From positions 1-11,016 of the forward strand of contig JAMOUT010000049.1 of the NCBI GenBank assembly GCA_027061995.1: a stretch of DNA of 11,016 bases. The letters run 5' to 3'. Position numbers and translations under genes: made by a program. Position 1 is the first letter of the stretch; the number at the start of each line of letters is the position of its first letter. Below, in pieces: positions 741 through 8,095 of this stretch. The notes beneath the pieces are model-generated. The model saw only the letters and a list, made by a program, of their open reading frames with translations. It was not told the origin of the DNA and ran no database searches. The DNA comes from Candidatus Aminicenantota bacterium. Lineage in GTDB: Bacteria > Acidobacteriota > Aminicenantia > JAMOAD01.

Positions 741-1991
741 TCAGTTTAATTCTTCGGGTGAGCCAATTCTACCGAGAAGTGCCGAGGCAGTAACAATTTC
801 CGGAGATGCAAGATATGTTTCCCCTTTTCCCTGTTTTCCGGGGAAATTTCTGTTTCCGGTTGTAATCTGAATCTCTCCCTCTCCGGTAAGACCTATATGC
901 CCTTCGGCACAACCTCCGCAAGAAGCATTTGAAACTATCACACCGGCATCAAAAAGGTCAAAAAGAATCCCCTCTTTCAGAAGTTTCCCGTAAATTTTTC
1001 TTGTAGCCGGAACTATGCTGAATCTTATCCCTTCGGGGATTTTTCTCCCTTTTAAAATTTTTGCGGCCGCAACAATATCCTCATATCTTCCGTTTGTGCA
1101 TGATCCTATAAAAGCTGATTCTATCCCTACATTTTTAAGCTCGGCAACATCAAAAACATTGTGAGGATGAGGAGGTGATGCTACCTGTGGCCCTATCCCT
1201 TCCACGACTATCTCCAAAATTTTACTGTATTTGGCATCAGAATCAGCTTTGGGTTGCTCTTTCATATCAGGATTGAATGTTTTAAGTTCTTTTTTTACTG
1301 ATTCCGACATCGGAATAAAAGCAACTATTCCGGCCATCTCCGTTACCATGGAACAAAGTGTTATCCTCCCGTGAAGAGATAATCTTTCAACAGCTTCTCC
1401 GTAAAATTCTATCGCCTTTCCGAGAGCCTCTTTTGTTCCCAATTTTTTAAGGATATAAAGAGTTAAATCTTTAGGAGAGGTGTTTTTCGCGGGTAAACCT
1501 TTGATATTAACTTTTATTGTCTCGGGGATTTCAAACCAGGTTTTTCCCGTCCTGAAAGCATACGCAATATCAATATCTCCCATCCCTTGTCCGAAAGCAC
1601 CGATTGCACCGAGAATATTATAGTGGGAATCAGTTCCCACCGCTATATCTCCAGGGCCAACTTTTCCCTCTTCAATAAGAACATGGGTTCCTATACCCGC
1701 ATCAATATCATAAACTTTAATCCCCTGTTTTTTTGCAAAATTCCTGCAAATCTCCTGATTTATCGCATATTTTATATTTTTTGCCGGAGCAACAAGATCA
1801 AAAGTAAAAAAAGTATTATTAACTTTTGCAACAGGAACATCTCCGTATTCTCTTTCATAATTTTTAACCACATTGGGCCCTCCGAAATCTCTTGCGGATA
1901 TCACATCAAGTTCAATCCATACGATATTTCCGGGTTTTACCTCCTCGTCAGTATGAGAAGAGATAATTTTTTCAATTATAGTTTTACCCAT
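741..1991 (-). CDS. Divergent aconitase/LeuC-family hydro-lyase, large subunit
   Basis: A 416-residue protein, full length for the LeuC/HacA large subunit (domains 1-3). The [4Fe-4S] ligands are intact: C298 in GSCTNGR, C358 and C361 in ASCGGCAEGH. The DSH motif (121-123), the Glu at 218 and NRN (380-382) are also kept. Compared by eye with the paralogue at 6331-7584, several active-site positions differ: the DH pair is D65-L66; CHQ is replaced by GTH (101-103); SNMAAE reads CSMVTE (213-218), so Asn becomes Ser; and the substrate-binding Arg after NRNF is K386. This looks like a coherent specificity change, not decay. The gene starts one base after the stop of the dehydrogenase gene, with AAAGGGA inside that gene's end as ribosome site, so the two are co-translated. 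No small subunit adjoins it; it may share the LeuD at 7595-8095 or one elsewhere. The substrate (isopropylmalate, homoaconitate, aconitate or another) is not determined. Confidence 0.85.
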   Translation of the reverse strand: MGKTIIEKIISSHTDEEVKPGNIVWIELDVISARDFGGPNVVKNYEREYGDVPVAKVNNTFFTFDLVAPAKNIKYAINQEICRNFAKKQGIKVYDIDAGIGTHVLIEEGKVGPGDIAVGTDSHYNILGAIGAFGQGMGDIDIAYAFRTGKTWFEIPETIKVNIKGLPAKNTSPKDLTLYILKKLGTKEALGKAIEFYGEAVERLSLHGRITLCSMVTEMAGIVAFIPMSESVKKELKTFNPDMKEQPKADSDAKYSKILEIVVEGIGPQVASPPHPHNVFDVAELKNVGIESAFIGSCTNGRYEDIVAAAKILKGRKIPEGIRFSIVPATRKIYGKLLKEGILFDLFDAGVIVSNASCGGCAEGHIGLTGEGEIQITTGNRNFPGKQGKGETYLASPEIVTASALLGRIGSPEELN

Positions 1992-1992
1992 T

Positions 1993-3117
1993 TTATCCCT
2001 TTATTTTTCTGACTATCTCTTCAGCCATCTCAATAGTTGTATTATTACCTCCCATATCATAAGTTCTGACTTTTTCCTCTGCAATAACCTCTGCCACAGC
2101 TTTTAATACTGTTTCCCCTTTTTCAGTTTCTCCGAGAAAATCAAGCATGATTTTGGAAGCGAGAATAGCGGCGATAGGATTAACTTTATATTGTCCCGCA
2201 TATTTTGGTGCGGAGCCATGGGTAGGTTCAAAAACTCCGAAATTCTTACTCATATTACCACTTGCCGCAAAACCGAGCCCTCCGACCAATTGTGCGGATA
2301 AATCCGATATAATATCTCCGAAAAGATTTTCTGCTACAAGAACATCATAATTTTCAGGATTTTTAACGAGCCACATAGTCATTGCATCAATGTTAGCCTC
2401 TTTGTATTCTATATGAGGATATTCTTTTGCAATATCTCTTGCAATCCTGACCATAAGTCCCCCTGTTTCCCTTAAAACATTCGGTTTTTCAACAACAGTT
2501 ACGGATTTCCTTTTATTTTTATCCGCATATTCAAAAGCGGCTTTCACTATTCTCGTGCATCCCTCTTTTGTCATAATTCTTGTTGAAACAGCGATTTCAT
2601 CTCCGGGAACATCTTTAAATCTATCCATTTTAGGATTATTATTTAAGAAAGCATATCTGACTTCATCGGGAAGAGGATAAAATTCAACTCCCGCATACAT
2701 CCCTTCCGTATTTTCCCTGAAAACAATCAAATCTATGCCATCTTTATAATTCAAAGGATTTCCTTTAAAAGCTTTACAAGGTCTCATGTTGGTATATAAA
2801 TCAAACTCTTGTCTTAACCTGACTATGGGACTAAAATAAACAAACCCTTTGTTTTTAAGTGAAGGGTCAAGTTCTTTCTGAGCTTCATCTTTTGGTTTTG
2901 ATGTTATAGCTCCGAACAGAGCCGCATCAGATACTTTCAAAAGTTCTATCGTTCTATCGGGAAGAGGATTACCTTCCTTTTTCCAAAATTCCCAACCTAT
3001 ATCTCCGTAAGTCCAATCCGCTTTAAAATCAACGGCATTAAGAACAAGCATAGCCGCCTCAATAACCTCTTTTCCTACGCCATCTCCCGGCAAAACCGCA
3101 ATTTTAAAATTACTCAT
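1993..3117 (-). CDS. Isocitrate/isopropylmalate-family decarboxylating dehydrogenase
   Basis: A 374-residue beta-decarboxylating dehydrogenase oxidising a 2-hydroxyacid using NAD(P) and a divalent metal. Family residues are complete: R102 and R112 (RLRQ, MRP), RENTEGMY (134-141), K211, D244 (NIDA), D268 and D272 (GDIISD). Compared with E. coli isocitrate dehydrogenase from memory, S96 sits at the S113 position and YAGVEF (141-146) matches YAGIEW. The stretch HGSAPKYAGQYKVNP (300-314) carries K305-Y306 as at K344-Y345, and Y353 matches Y391, but G357 replaces R395. This favours isocitrate-like chemistry and possibly NADP, with homoisocitrate or isopropylmalate still possible; the motif KPNVLRETGG (211-220) is unlike classical LeuB. 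The start at 3117 has an excellent ribosome site (AAAGGAGGAG, 3130-3121 on the minus strand). It is the first gene of a two-gene unit with the divergent hydro-lyase, which would perform the preceding isomerisation. Confidence 0.9.
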   Translation of the reverse strand: MSNFKIAVLPGDGVGKEVIEAAMLVLNAVDFKADWTYGDIGWEFWKKEGNPLPDRTIELLKVSDAALFGAITSKPKDEAQKELDPSLKNKGFVYFSPIVRLRQEFDLYTNMRPCKAFKGNPLNYKDGIDLIVFRENTEGMYAGVEFYPLPDEVRYAFLNNNPKMDRFKDVPGDEIAVSTRIMTKEGCTRIVKAAFEYADKNKRKSVTVVEKPNVLRETGGLMVRIARDIAKEYPHIEYKEANIDAMTMWLVKNPENYDVLVAENLFGDIISDLSAQLVGGLGFAASGNMSKNFGVFEPTHGSAPKYAGQYKVNPIAAILASKIMLDFLGETEKGETVLKAVAEVIAEEKVRTYDMGGNNTTIEMAEEIVRKIKG

Positions 3118-4532: not shown

Positions 4533-5789
4533 ATGGATTATGATATTAAAGATATAAATCTTGCCGAAGAGGGAAAAAATAAGATAGAATGGGCTGACAA
4601 TAATATGCCTGTTCTTCGTAAAATAAGGGAAGATTTTGAAAGAGAAAAACCTTTAAAAGGGGTAAGAATCGCAGCATGTTTACATGTAACAACGGAAACC
4701 GCAAATCTGATGAGAACACTTAAAGCGGGAGGGGCTGAAATAGCACTTACAGCATCAAACCCTCTTTCAACCCAGGATTATACTGCCGCCGCCCTTGTTA
4801 AAGAATACGGTATATCCGTCTTTGCAATAAAGGGAGAGGATAATGATACTTATTACAAACACATAGATTCGGCTCTTTCGATAAAACCGATGATAACAAT
4901 GGATGATGGTGCGGATCTTGTATCAACGATTCACACAAAAAAAAGAGACCTTCTCGAGCATATTATAGGTGGAACGGAAGAAACAACAACAGGTGTTATA
5001 AGACTTGTAAGTATGGCAAAACAAAAAGTTCTCGAATATCCTATCATAGCGGTAAATAATGCAATGACAAAACATTTTTTCGATAACAGATACGGAACAG
5101 GCCAAAGTAGTTTGGACGGTATTTTAAGAGCTACCAATGTTCTTATTGCGGGGTTGAATTTTGTTGTGGCGGGTTACGGATGGTGCGGGAAAGGTGTTGC
5201 AATGAGAGCCAAAGGTGCCGGAGCAAGAGTTATTATCACTGAGATTGATCCCATCAAGGCTCTGGAAGCATCGATGGACGGATTCTGGGTTTTACCGATG
5301 GAAGAAGCCGCAAAAATCGGCGATATTTTTCTCACTGTTACAGGTAATAAAAATGTTATTTCGGAAGAACACTTTAAACTTATGAAAGACGGAGCGATTG
5401 TAGCCAACTCAGGTCATTTTAATGTGGAGATTAATCTTGAAGCTCTTGAAAAAATAGCTGTATCAAAAAGGGAAGTTCGACAATTCGTTAAAGAATACAA
5501 ACTACCTAATGGGAACAGAGTTAATATTCTTGCCGACGGAAGATTAGTGAATCTTTCCGCTGCGGAGGGACATCCGGCAATGGTTATGGATATGAGTTTT
5601 GCAAATCAAGCATTGTCAGCTCTCCATATTCTGAATCATCATAAGGAAATCGGGAAAACAGTAATAGATGTTCCCGAACATATTGATAGAAACATAGCGA
5701 AGCTAAAACTTGAAACAATGGGAATAGATATTGACACGCTAACACCCGAACAGGAAGAATACCTCAGCGGATGGCAGGAGGGAACCTAA
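4533..5789 (+). CDS. ahcY: Adenosylhomocysteinase (SAH hydrolase)
   Basis: S-adenosylhomocysteine to adenosine and homocysteine, using tightly bound NAD (EC 3.13.2.1, formerly 3.3.1.1). 418 residues. Visible residues: H51 in [11 protein letters not shown]125 in TMDDGADL, E150 in [10 protein letters not shown]180 and D184 in the [18 protein letters not shown] stretch, the NAD-binding GYGWCGKG (214-221), and H347 in AEGHP. It is the shorter type seen in archaea and Thermotoga: the roughly 40-residue insert of eukaryotic and many bacterial enzymes is absent, and the C-terminus ends [16 protein letters not shown] without the KPDHYRY tail. AAGGAG (4520-4525) supports ATG 4533. It follows metK by 23 nt and its TAA overlaps the next ATG (TAATG). 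It detoxifies the product of SAM-dependent methylation. Confidence 0.97.
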
Positions 5790-6328
5790 TGAAGGAGTTG
5801 GTGCTGAAAATATTCCCTGAAATAAACGGAATTAAAAACAGTGAACTAAAAGATAAAACAATAAACACATGGATAAAAGCGATAAAAGAGAATGGTTGGA
5901 GTGAACAGGACATTAATGAAATCCCTTTTACCCTTCTCATAGAAAATACAAAAATCTCAATTATAGAACATACGAGAGGAGTTACAAATACAGCACTTAA
6001 AATAGCGGAAAGTTTAAAAGATTCTTATAAAGATAATATAAAAATTGATTTTGATCTTTTACTTTCGGGAGCGATTCTTCATGATGTGGGAAAATTATAT
6101 GAGTATAAAAAAGAAAACGGTAAATTTGTTAAATCGGATCTCGGTATAATCGTTCGTCACCCCATATCGGGAGCAGCCGTAGCATACGGAGAGGGTTTAC
6201 CCTTTGAAATCGTTCATTCGATTGCTTCTCACTCAAAAGAGGGAGATTTTTCCAAAAGAACAATTGAGACAATAATTATTCATCATGCTGATTTTGTCAA
6301 TTTTGAACCTTTTAAATATTGGGGGTAA
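5789..6328 (+). CDS. HD-domain metal-dependent hydrolase, substrate unknown
   Basis: A 179-residue soluble protein with a single HD domain. The ligand set is complete: H61 (IEHTRG), H98-D99 (AILHDVGK), H124 (RHP), H148 (ASHSKEG) and D168 (HHADF). HD proteins are usually phosphohydrolases of nucleotides or phosphate esters; which substrate this one uses cannot be read from the sequence. Residues 1-55 are an N-terminal helical-looking extension. The start chosen is ATG 5789, overlapping the ahcY stop as TAATG, with AGGAGGG (5776-5782) at ideal spacing. An in-frame ATG at 5771 would add six residues but lies before that ribosome site. Its position between ahcY and the leuC-type gene suggests a metabolic or clean-up job in the same operon, for instance on a nucleotide by-product; this is inference. 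Confidence 0.85.
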   Translation: MKELVLKIFPEINGIKNSELKDKTINTWIKAIKENGWSEQDINEIPFTLLIENTKISIIEHTRGVTNTALKIAESLKDSYKDNIKIDFDLLLSGAILHDVGKLYEYKKENGKFVKSDLGIIVRHPISGAAVAYGEGLPFEIVHSIASHSKEGDFSKRTIETIIIHHADFVNFEPFKYWG

Positions 6329-6330
6329 AA

Positions 6331-7584
6331 ATGGGAGAGACTTTTGTTCAAAAAGTTTTTTCAAGGAAAGTAGGAAAAAAAGTTATCCCTTCCGAAATAG
6401 TTGTTGTAGAGCCGGACTTTGTTCTGTCTCATGATAATGCCGCTCCGATTTCAAAGATATTCGGAAAATTCGGAGTGGAGAAAATCAAATATCCCGAAAG
6501 ATTGGTTATTATTCTTGATCACACTGTTCCCGCACCCACAGAAGTTGAAGCGGGAAATCATAAACTTATAAGAGAGTTTGTTAAAGAGCAAAATATTCCC
6601 AATTTTTATGATGTTAATACCGGAATATGCCATCAGGTGCTTTCTGAAAAAGGTTATGCTCTTCCGGGGAAAATAATTCTCGGCTCGGATTCACATACGA
6701 CAACTTACGGAGCATTCGGAGCTTTTTCAGCGGGAATCGGAAGAACTGAAGTTGCATCCATATGGGCAACAGGTGAACTTTGGATGAGAGTCCCCGAAAC
6801 AATAAGGATTATCCTAAAAGGAGATTTACCGAAAGGGGTATATGCGAAAGATGTTATTCTTCATATCATAGGAGAGATTGGAGCGGACGGAGCAACATAT
6901 AAAGCCGTTGAATTCACGGGTGAACTTGCGGATAAATTTTCAATAGCTTCAAGAATGGTATTTTCCAATATGGCGGCGGAGATGGGAGCAAAAGCAGGTT
7001 ATTTTCACCCTGATGATAAGACAATTGAATTTATTAAAGATATAGCAAAAGCTGATTATGAGATATTAAAATCGGATCCTGATGCGGAATATGAAAAAAC
7101 TTTGGAATTCGATGTCAGTAATTTAATCCCCCAGATTGCAAAGCCACATACGGTTGATAATGTTTCACCCGTAAATGAAGTTGAGGGAACAAAAATACAT
7201 CAAGGTTTGATAGGGACATGCACAAACGGTAGAGTGGAAGATCTTGAAGAGGCTGCAAAAATTCTTAAAGGTAAAAAAATTAAAGAGGGAGTCAGATGTC
7301 TTGTTTTTGCCGCATCCATGCAAGAGTATATCAAAGCTCTTAAAAAAGGGTTAATCGAAGTTTTTGCAAAGGCAGGTTGTATTGTAATGAACCCTGGTTG
7401 CGGACCTTGTCTCGGAGCTCATGAAGGTGTTCTTGCCCCGGGTGAAACAGCTATCTCGACTGCAAACAGAAATTTTAAAGGGAGAATGGGAAGCAGGGAA
7501 GCGTTTGTTTATCTCGGCTCTCCCGCTACAGTCGCAGCATCGGTTATAGAAGGTGAAATTACCGATCCGAGAAAATATCTCTGA
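6331..7584 (+). CDS. leuC: 3-isopropylmalate dehydratase/homoaconitase-type large subunit
   Basis: Fe-S hydro-lyase large subunit of the isopropylmalate isomerase/homoaconitase group, catalysing dehydration and rehydration that moves a hydroxyl to the neighbouring carbon. 417 residues, the archaeal-type LeuC/HacA length. All expected residues are present: SHD (33-35), D63-H64, CHQ (100-102), DSH (120-122), SNMAAE (212-217), cluster ligands C297 (GTCTNGR), C357 and C360 (GCGPC), NRN (379-381) and R385. It therefore looks like the canonical enzyme, unlike the minus-strand paralogue. ATG 6331 follows GGGGG (6321-6325); an upstream in-frame TTG at 6319 inside the HD gene has no ribosome site. The small subunit follows 10 nt later. 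Isopropylmalate, homoaconitate and aconitate cannot be separated by eye; the gene symbol reflects the family. Confidence 0.88.
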   Translation: MGETFVQKVFSRKVGKKVIPSEIVVVEPDFVLSHDNAAPISKIFGKFGVEKIKYPERLVIILDHTVPAPTEVEAGNHKLIREFVKEQNIPNFYDVNTGICHQVLSEKGYALPGKIILGSDSHTTTYGAFGAFSAGIGRTEVASIWATGELWMRVPETIRIILKGDLPKGVYAKDVILHIIGEIGADGATYKAVEFTGELADKFSIASRMVFSNMAAEMGAKAGYFHPDDKTIEFIKDIAKADYEILKSDPDAEYEKTLEFDVSNLIPQIAKPHTVDNVSPVNEVEGTKIHQGLIGTCTNGRVEDLEEAAKILKGKKIKEGVRCLVFAASMQEYIKALKKGLIEVFAKAGCIVMNPGCGPCLGAHEGVLAPGETAISTANRNFKGRMGSREAFVYLGSPATVAASVIEGEITDPRKYL

Positions 7585-7594
7585 AGGAGGAATA

Positions 7595-8095
7595 ATGGCG
7601 GATAAAATCAAAGGAAAAGTTTGGAAATACGGAGATGGTGTTAATACCGATGTTCTTTATCCGGGAAAATATACATATAAAAACTTAACTCCCGAAGAAA
7701 TAGCCTCTCATGCTCTTGAAGATTTGGATCCCGATTTTTCAAAAAAGGCGCAAAAAGGGGATATCATTGTGGCGGGAAAAAATTTCGGTATGGGCTCTTC
7801 AAGAGAACAAGCTGTTACAGCTCTAAAATACAAAGGTGTGGCGGCAATAATTGCAAAATCTTTTTCAAGAATATATTTTAGAAATGCCATAAATCAAGGA
7901 ATTCCGGCAATTCAAAGTGAACAAGCTTCAGATGCCATAGAGAACGGAGAAATTATTGAGATAGATTTTAAAAACGGAAAAATTATAACCGAAAAACGGG
8001 AATTTTCCTTTCCCTCATTTCCCGAGAAAATGGTTGAAATTCTTGAAGCCGGAGGATTGGTTGAATATACTAAAAAAAAGTTAGGGAAAAATTAA
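7595..8095 (+). CDS. leuD: 3-isopropylmalate dehydratase/homoaconitase-type small subunit
   Basis: Domain-4 (swivelling) subunit pairing with the upstream large subunit. 166 residues, normal for the archaeal-type LeuD/HacB. It has the typical GDGVNTDVLYPGKY start (13-26), GKNFGMGSSREQA (61-73) with the catalytic Ser-Ser-Arg (68-70), and IAKSFSRIYFRNAINQGIP (86-104). The substrate-specificity loop after the PGKY motif reads Y26-T-Y-K29, unlike the YLRT and YLVY loops I recall for homoaconitase and isopropylmalate isomerase, so the substrate is left open. AAGGAGG (7584-7590) fixes the start at ATG 7595; the frame extends upstream to a GTG at 7553 within leuC, which has no ribosome site. Its stop abuts the purF ATG directly. 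It is the only small subunit in the window, although two large subunits are present. Confidence 0.9.
   Translation: MADKIKGKVWKYGDGVNTDVLYPGKYTYKNLTPEEIASHALEDLDPDFSKKAQKGDIIVAGKNFGMGSSREQAVTALKYKGVAAIIAKSFSRIYFRNAINQGIPAIQSEQASDAIENGEIIEIDFKNGKIITEKREFSFPSFPEKMVEILEAGGLVEYTKKKLGKN

Follow-up and report, generated by a model that had tools for sequence, protein, structure and literature searches.

A probable new aconitase subfamily that travels with a distinct NADP-type dehydrogenase in uncultured anaerobic bacteria and archaea

Introduction

The described enzymes closest to the locus presented here are the two-subunit isomerases LeuCD and HacAB (PDB 4nqy, 4kp2), members of the aconitase superfamily. 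In aconitase, His101 is held to protonate the leaving hydroxyl, and aconitase X, which acts as cis-3-hydroxyproline or mevalonate-5-phosphate dehydratase, shows that the superfamily can dispense with this residue (PMC8184944). Substrate preference is set, in IPMI and HACN, by a recognition loop of the small subunit (PMC7308503). Two aconitase-family enzymes may also share a single isomerisation upstream of a beta-decarboxylating dehydrogenase, as is the case for homocitrate in fungi and Thermus (PMC3556520). Other relevant systems are the homoisocitrate dehydrogenase of methanogens (AksF) and archaeal IPMDH (LEU3_arch), as well as the citryl-CoA synthetase and citryl-CoA lyase of Hydrogenobacter.

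The locus analysed here resembles each of these systems in part. It encodes a large subunit of the aconitase family (X) and a beta-decarboxylating dehydrogenase (Y), which probably represent a new aconitase subfamily and a matching dehydrogenase clade in an undescribed pathway; no published description of the subfamily or of the cluster was found in the open-access literature.

The locus and its genome

The window, i.e., the whole stretch of 11,016 nucleotides under analysis, is the entire contig C49 of a 2.36-Mb, 95% complete assembly, whose nearest named relatives are Candidatus Aminicenantes MAGs. A single base separates the stop of Y from the start of X, and the genes HD, LC2, and LD2 lie 3 kb away (Table 1). 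The genome encodes exactly four large and four small subunits of the aconitase family, which leaves the orphan small subunit S, found on another contig beside an FAH-family gene and NhaD, as the partner for X. The window also encodes, at 397-735, a secreted-looking protein of 112 aa with repeats of about 16 aa (YxTKYKSDAD) that matches DUF6150.

Table 1. Features of the window and aconitase-family genes elsewhere in the same genome
Feature	Position	Strand	Description
X	741..1991	-	416 aa, intact; divergent aconitase-family large subunit; L66, G101-T102-H103, S214, K386; Fe-S ligands C298, C358, C361
Y	1993..3117	-	374 aa, intact; PF00180; K305-Y306 NADP-type; FGAITSKP / SPIV / EKPN / DAMTMW
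HD	5786..6328	+	HD-domain protein, PF01966; recurs beside LC2, Y or X
LC2	6331..7584	+	second aconitase-family large subunit, canonical active site; own clade (SH-aLRT 99, quick tree)
LD2	7595..8095	+	pairs with LC2 as its small subunit; YTYK in the substrate loop, where the clade consensus YTYx has no Arg
S	contig C95, 9743-10273		orphan small subunit
AcnL/AcnS	contig C18		in a complete citrate synthase-IDH operon (CS-AcnL-AcnS-IDH)
LeuC/LeuD	contig C75		in a complete leuA-cimA-leuC-leuD-leuB cluster adjoining ilv genes

X, a divergent large subunit, and its small subunit S

In a profile search, X matches PF00330 with 266.8 bits (cut-off 28.7), which places it in the aconitase superfamily. 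It shares with LeuCD and HacAB the two-subunit build, the Fe-S ligands, the DSH and NRN motifs, and the GSSR motif of the small subunit, and is about 37-42% identical to its paralogues. X nevertheless falls far short of the equivalog cut-offs of all LeuC, HacA, and aconitase models (LEU2, 346.7 of 610.65 bits; HacA_Meth, 328 of 550; aconitate hydratase, 258 of 612), and passes just two NCBIfam models, PRK00402 and hacA_fam, both of which describe broad subfamilies.

The differences are concentrated in the active site, as seen in an alignment of 91 distinct X orthologues, taken from 60 relatives and from named genomes (80 loci), with 48 LC2, 7 LeuC, and 7 AcnL proteins, 2 fused aconitases, and the large subunits of M. 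jannaschii IPMI and HACN. X keeps the three Cys ligands, also conserved in 91/91 orthologues, together with D121-S122-H123 and N380-R381-N382. In contrast, it reads D65-L66, G101-T102-H103, CSMVTE (with S214), and K386 where LC2 has DH, CHQ, SNMAAE, and R, respectively. Throughout the X set, position 66, the equivalent of His101, is Leu, Cys, or Thr and never His, while position 102, the equivalent of His147, is Ser or Thr and never His, and is followed by an invariant H103 (91/91). N125, S214 (for Asn258), and K386 (for Arg452) are each found in all 91 sequences. The four canonical residues are absent from every X, whereas all non-X sequences of the comparison, without a single one deviating, carry H, H, N, and R at positions 66, 102, 214, and 386, respectively. 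In a quick tree, X is monophyletic (SH-aLRT 100), on a stem of 1.1 changes per column.

Comparison of X from this genome with its three family members gave a dN/dS of about 0.07-0.08 (NG86; rough ratios, as dS is high), and no stops were present; purifying selection on X is accordingly strong. X as a decaying paralogue or pseudogene was rejected on these grounds. Concerted changes that are fixed in the clade and under selection make a distinct chemistry or substrate likelier than decay, as the initial annotation had argued from the window alone. The residues and positions that it had listed for X against the canonical paralogue are exactly those seen in the alignment with LC2, and the same holds for the intact cluster ligands, DSH, and NRN. 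It had also named in advance a family alignment as a test that could refute it: free variation of the altered positions among LeuC proteins is excluded by a signature fixed in the X set and in the opposite state in all other sequences of the comparison. The proposed L66/T102/K386 marker needs adjustment, in that K386 and Ser or Thr at 102 do define a well-supported clade while position 66 varies among its members.

S orthologues lie directly downstream of X in 44 of the 59 loci having sequence available, and the Aminicenantes genomes G058, G027, and G021 each encode a fusion of the two, about 600 aa long. S provides the swivelling small subunit with GSSR that is typical of the superfamily, here in the form GSSRQ (SSRQ in 59/59 S orthologues), and most S proteins carry the loop HN-x-[YFH]-L-[HA]-[IV]. 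The GSSRQ motif and the HN-x-x-L loop set S apart from the small subunits of LeuCD and HacAB, just as the four replaced residues and the fixed H103 and N125 set X apart from their large subunits. Judging from gene order, fusion, and the subunit count, S is the predicted small subunit of X in this genome. Aconitase X offers a superfamily precedent for an active site rebuilt not to use His101 (PMC8184944), but the X of the window differs from it by matching PF00330 and the LeuC/HacA models, by keeping DSH and NRN, and by having a LeuD-type small subunit. X is thus probably the large subunit of a heterodimeric [4Fe-4S] hydro-lyase from an undescribed aconitase subfamily.

Y, a beta-decarboxylating dehydrogenase of its own type

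Y matches PF00180 with 314 bits in a profile search. Its best models are methanogen homoisocitrate dehydrogenase (AksF, 357 bits) and LEU3_arch (330 bits), with which it shares the FGA.TS loop type, but it is below both cut-offs, and also below that of the leuB equivalog (240.5 of 353.2 bits); the LeuB of the genome is encoded on C75. Among 54 Y sequences, the following motifs are invariant or almost invariant: FGAITSKP, S96-P-I98-V99, EKPN (at the catalytic Lys211), D244-A-M-x-M-W249, and K305-Y306. The EKPN, DAMxMW, SPIV, and NADP-type KY motifs, along with about 30 aa inserted after YAGVEF, distinguish Y from AksF and LEU3_arch. Comparison between this genome and its three family members gave a dN/dS of about 0.035-0.045 (NG86; again a rough ratio with high dS), without stops, so that Y too is under strong purifying selection.

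Y had first been described as carrying isocitrate-type residues, a description that holds for one part of the protein. S96 and YAGVEF are indeed present, and the NADP residues Lys344-Tyr345 of isocitrate dehydrogenase have their counterparts in K305 (54/54) and Y306 (53/54). However, the substrate loop is of the LeuB/HICDH type, unlike that of the isocitrate dehydrogenases aligned: the KGPLTTP loop with S113/N115 is absent from Y, which has FGAITSKP instead, and Ile (I98, 54/54) stands where isocitrate dehydrogenases have the Asn that binds the third carboxylate of their substrate. The position of the Arg of Thermus HICDH is occupied by Val99. Together with the EKPN and DAMxMW motifs that are its own, these residues mark Y as a distinct type of dehydrogenase, predicted to use NADP(H) and to work with X.

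X and Y belong to a larger module

X and Y occur in more than 12 phyla of uncultured anaerobic bacteria and archaea, X-bearing genomes including Thermoplasmata, Methanomassiliicoccales, Cloacimonadota, Acetothermia/Bipolaricaulota, Chloroflexota, Fermentibacteria, WOR-3, KSB1, and others. Among 39 such genomes, 35 encode a Y orthologue (53-73% identity, other dehydrogenases being at most 46% identical), its lack in the other four being perhaps due to incompleteness, and 33 encode an LD2-like small subunit at 52% identity or above. X and Y are adjacent in Aminicenantes, Acetothermia/Bipolaricaulota, KSB1, and B38. This supports the original proposal that they act in one pathway.

The proposal that the two genes form a unit by themselves did not hold, and was replaced by a larger module, as X needs S and is accompanied by LC2/LD2 and HD. 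Several Aminicenantes families have a nine-gene order SucC-Fd/SucD/Ccl/HD/LC2/LD2/Y/X/S, and variant or partial clusters are found in Anaerolineae (L130), B38 (L141, L145), Zixibacteria (L206), and Sumerlaeota (L221). HD lies beside LC2, Y, or X in Aminicenantes, Anaerolineae, Zixibacteria, Sumerlaeota, B38, and Fermentibacteria. Since the HD, LC2, and LD2 genes of these conserved clusters correspond to those at 5786-8095 of the window, LC2, which had served as the canonical yardstick in the initial annotation, is probably a partner of X in the module. X, Y, S, LC2/LD2, and HD probably form one pathway, and a unit larger than two genes. Its composition varies, as Aminicenantes family f3 (L231, L232, and L234) has LC2/LD2 and Y without X, most members also lacking both Ccl and any PF00682 enzyme; X is therefore not always needed, and LC2/LD2 and Y can work in its absence. 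For Anaerolineae G079 and Thermoplasmata G068 and G069, no PF00180 protein other than Y and no aconitase-family protein other than LC2 and X is listed.

The citryl-CoA-lyase-like protein Ccl is closest to the authentic citryl-CoA lyase of Hydrogenobacter (6hxp, E 2e-58); it was not found in the genome of the window. A SucC-like subunit of the ATP-grasp type that ends in a 4Fe-4S ferredoxin-like domain (L062:1234-2811 and orthologues) is clustered with SucD-like and citryl-CoA lyase-like genes. By this domain, and by being nearer to the succinyl-CoA synthetase beta subunit (3ufx) than to 6hxq, it differs from the citryl-CoA synthetase of Hydrogenobacter. A methylmalonyl-CoA mutase is encoded near X in WOR-3, Cloacimonadota, and Anaerolineae (L104:5723-7688, L136:7039-8679, and L130:3929-5620), with an epimerase as well in L104, which suits a succinyl-CoA or propionyl-CoA context. 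Neighbour clustering yielded nothing else that was informative in at least three groups besides SucC/SucD and this mutase, and a functional link to the MAT/SAHH/PurF neighbours, which are confined to the window's own family (G000 and G004), was dropped. In Aminicenantes family f5 (L065:5997-10978, L067, L115, L124, and L137), X and S are preceded by genes for a 2-oxoacid:ferredoxin oxidoreductase of the pyruvate type, a roadblock protein, and a small Ras-like G protein, and further members of the family retain the order roadblock-G protein-X-S. Finally, an operon of Thermoplasmata (contig L223) comprises PycB, LD2, LC2, Y, IDH, ATP-citrate lyase-like A and B, and a fused aconitase; the presence of IDH beside Y argues for two substrates.

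A putative pathway and its alternatives

From the X clade and its residues, the pairing and fusion of S with X, the clusters, the co-occurrence, and the signs of selection, we infer a chemistry, a substrate class, a step order, a division of labour between the isomerases, and a direction. The best explanation as a whole, which we regard as probable but by no means assured, is that the X/S and LC2/LD2 isomerases, HD, and the Y dehydrogenase would act in one pathway on a substituted malate. A 2-substituted malate would be converted by X/S and LC2/LD2 to a 3-substituted malate through dehydration to an unsaturated acid and rehydration, each aconitase-type enzyme catalysing one half-step or both acting in tandem. 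Y would then carry out the NADP+-dependent oxidative decarboxylation of the 3-substituted malate to a 2-oxoacid. Alternatively, all of these steps could run in reverse, which would amount to CO2 fixation. In many hosts, the SucC-, SucD-, and citryl-CoA-lyase-like proteins may in addition join or split the 2-substituted malate, with acyl-CoA and a 2-oxoacid on the other side of the reaction.

As to the substrate, the Arg of the AcnS recognition loop (HLR) is present in neither LD2 (mostly YTYx) nor S (mostly [YFH]L[HA][IV]), and neither of them has the Arg of the homoaconitase small-subunit loop (motif YLRT). That three independent proteins have each lost residues that bind a carboxylate argues for a substituent that is small or apolar. 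A small 2- or 3-alkylmalate without an Arg-bound carboxylate is accordingly ranked first, though at less than even odds, e.g., citramalate and 3-methylmalate leading to 2-oxobutyrate, with citrate not far off in second place, homocitrate well behind, and a sizeable share of the weight left to none of the named substrates. Several observations count against the proposed pathway: HD has no evident fit to a hydroxy-acid route, family f3 does without X, four X-bearing genomes are without a Y orthologue, Ccl was not found in the genome of the window, and both the kinship of Ccl to citryl-CoA lyase and the methylmalonyl-CoA mutase genes near X would also fit a route between citrate and 2-oxoglutarate.

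Such a route is the strongest competitor, although we consider it rather unlikely. Here the module would be an anaerobic segment leading from citrate to 2-oxoglutarate, or the other way: LC2/LD2 and X/S would share the aconitase reaction, Y would be an NADP isocitrate dehydrogenase, and citryl-CoA synthetase and lyase would replace citrate synthase. The relationship of Ccl with the Hydrogenobacter lyase speaks for it, as do neighbours that fit a TCA-type route (SucC/SucD/Ccl, the 2-oxoacid oxidoreductase in G058, and methylmalonyl-CoA mutase), the genomes listing no other aconitase or PF00180 enzyme, and the L223 operon, which links LC2/LD2/Y with PycB, IDH, ACL-like, and aconitase genes. However, a complete CS-AcnL-AcnS-IDH operon also exists in the genome of the window and in family f4, and IDH adjoins Y in that very L223 operon. 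Moreover, Y does not have the isocitrate substrate loop, the aconitase Arg is in neither small subunit, and two of the three active-site His are gone from X.

The conversion of homocitrate to 2-oxoadipate by two aconitases, in the manner of fungi and Thermus, is improbable. Its two-aconitase logic is established in fungi (PMC3556520) and the top-scoring models for Y are those of the methanogen homoisocitrate dehydrogenase, but all models for Y are below cut-off, the small subunits are without Arg, and Val99 stands in place of the Thermus HICDH Arg. Furthermore, the only PF00682 proteins in the genome of the window are LeuA and CimA, and most of the module-bearing genomes checked yielded no PF00682 protein of any kind, candidate homocitrate synthases included, many hosts having a citryl-CoA lyase-type module instead. 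The homocitrate route first suggested for the locus is therefore not sustained as written, and a route through homocitrate synthase was discarded as the general case. The methylcitrate cycle was likewise discarded: 2-methylisocitrate is a tertiary alcohol, and hence not oxidisable by Y. Least probable of all is a decaying paralogue, or an ordinary additional LeuC-LeuB pair that would serve in making leucine or isoleucine; the family-level HMM matches (LeuC/HacA and LeuB/IDH) speak for it, and against it stand the separate and complete leuA-cimA-leuC-leuD-leuB-ilv cluster on C75, the absence from X of catalytic residues conserved in all LeuC examined, the low dN/dS without stops, and the fact that LeuA was not found in most module-bearing genomes checked.

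Returning to the substituted-malate pathway, a wider reading of it can be offered tentatively, as possible though somewhat doubtful. X, Y, and their partners might form a new central-carbon pathway, widespread among uncultured anaerobes of both domains, that links a 2-alkylmalate with a 2-oxoacid plus CO2 in either direction. Its enzymes would be an NADP dehydrogenase and two of the aconitase type, one of them from a new catalytic subfamily that does without His101, and a module resembling citryl-CoA synthetase and lyase would couple them to acetyl-CoA. The pathway could be either catabolic and ATP-conserving or CO2-fixing, for instance by interconverting pyruvate and acetyl-CoA with 2-oxobutyrate and propionyl-CoA.

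Concluding remarks

The aconitase superfamily is a textbook example of conserved catalysis, and the X clade, present in both bacteria and archaea, has lost two of its three active-site His and one substrate Arg. That it remains under strong selection and has kept the Fe-S cluster and the base serine motif would imply that either its substrate is new or water is expelled in a novel manner. In turn, the association of X with a dehydrogenase and another isomerase points to an unrecognised set of steps in the carbon metabolism of uncultured anaerobes.
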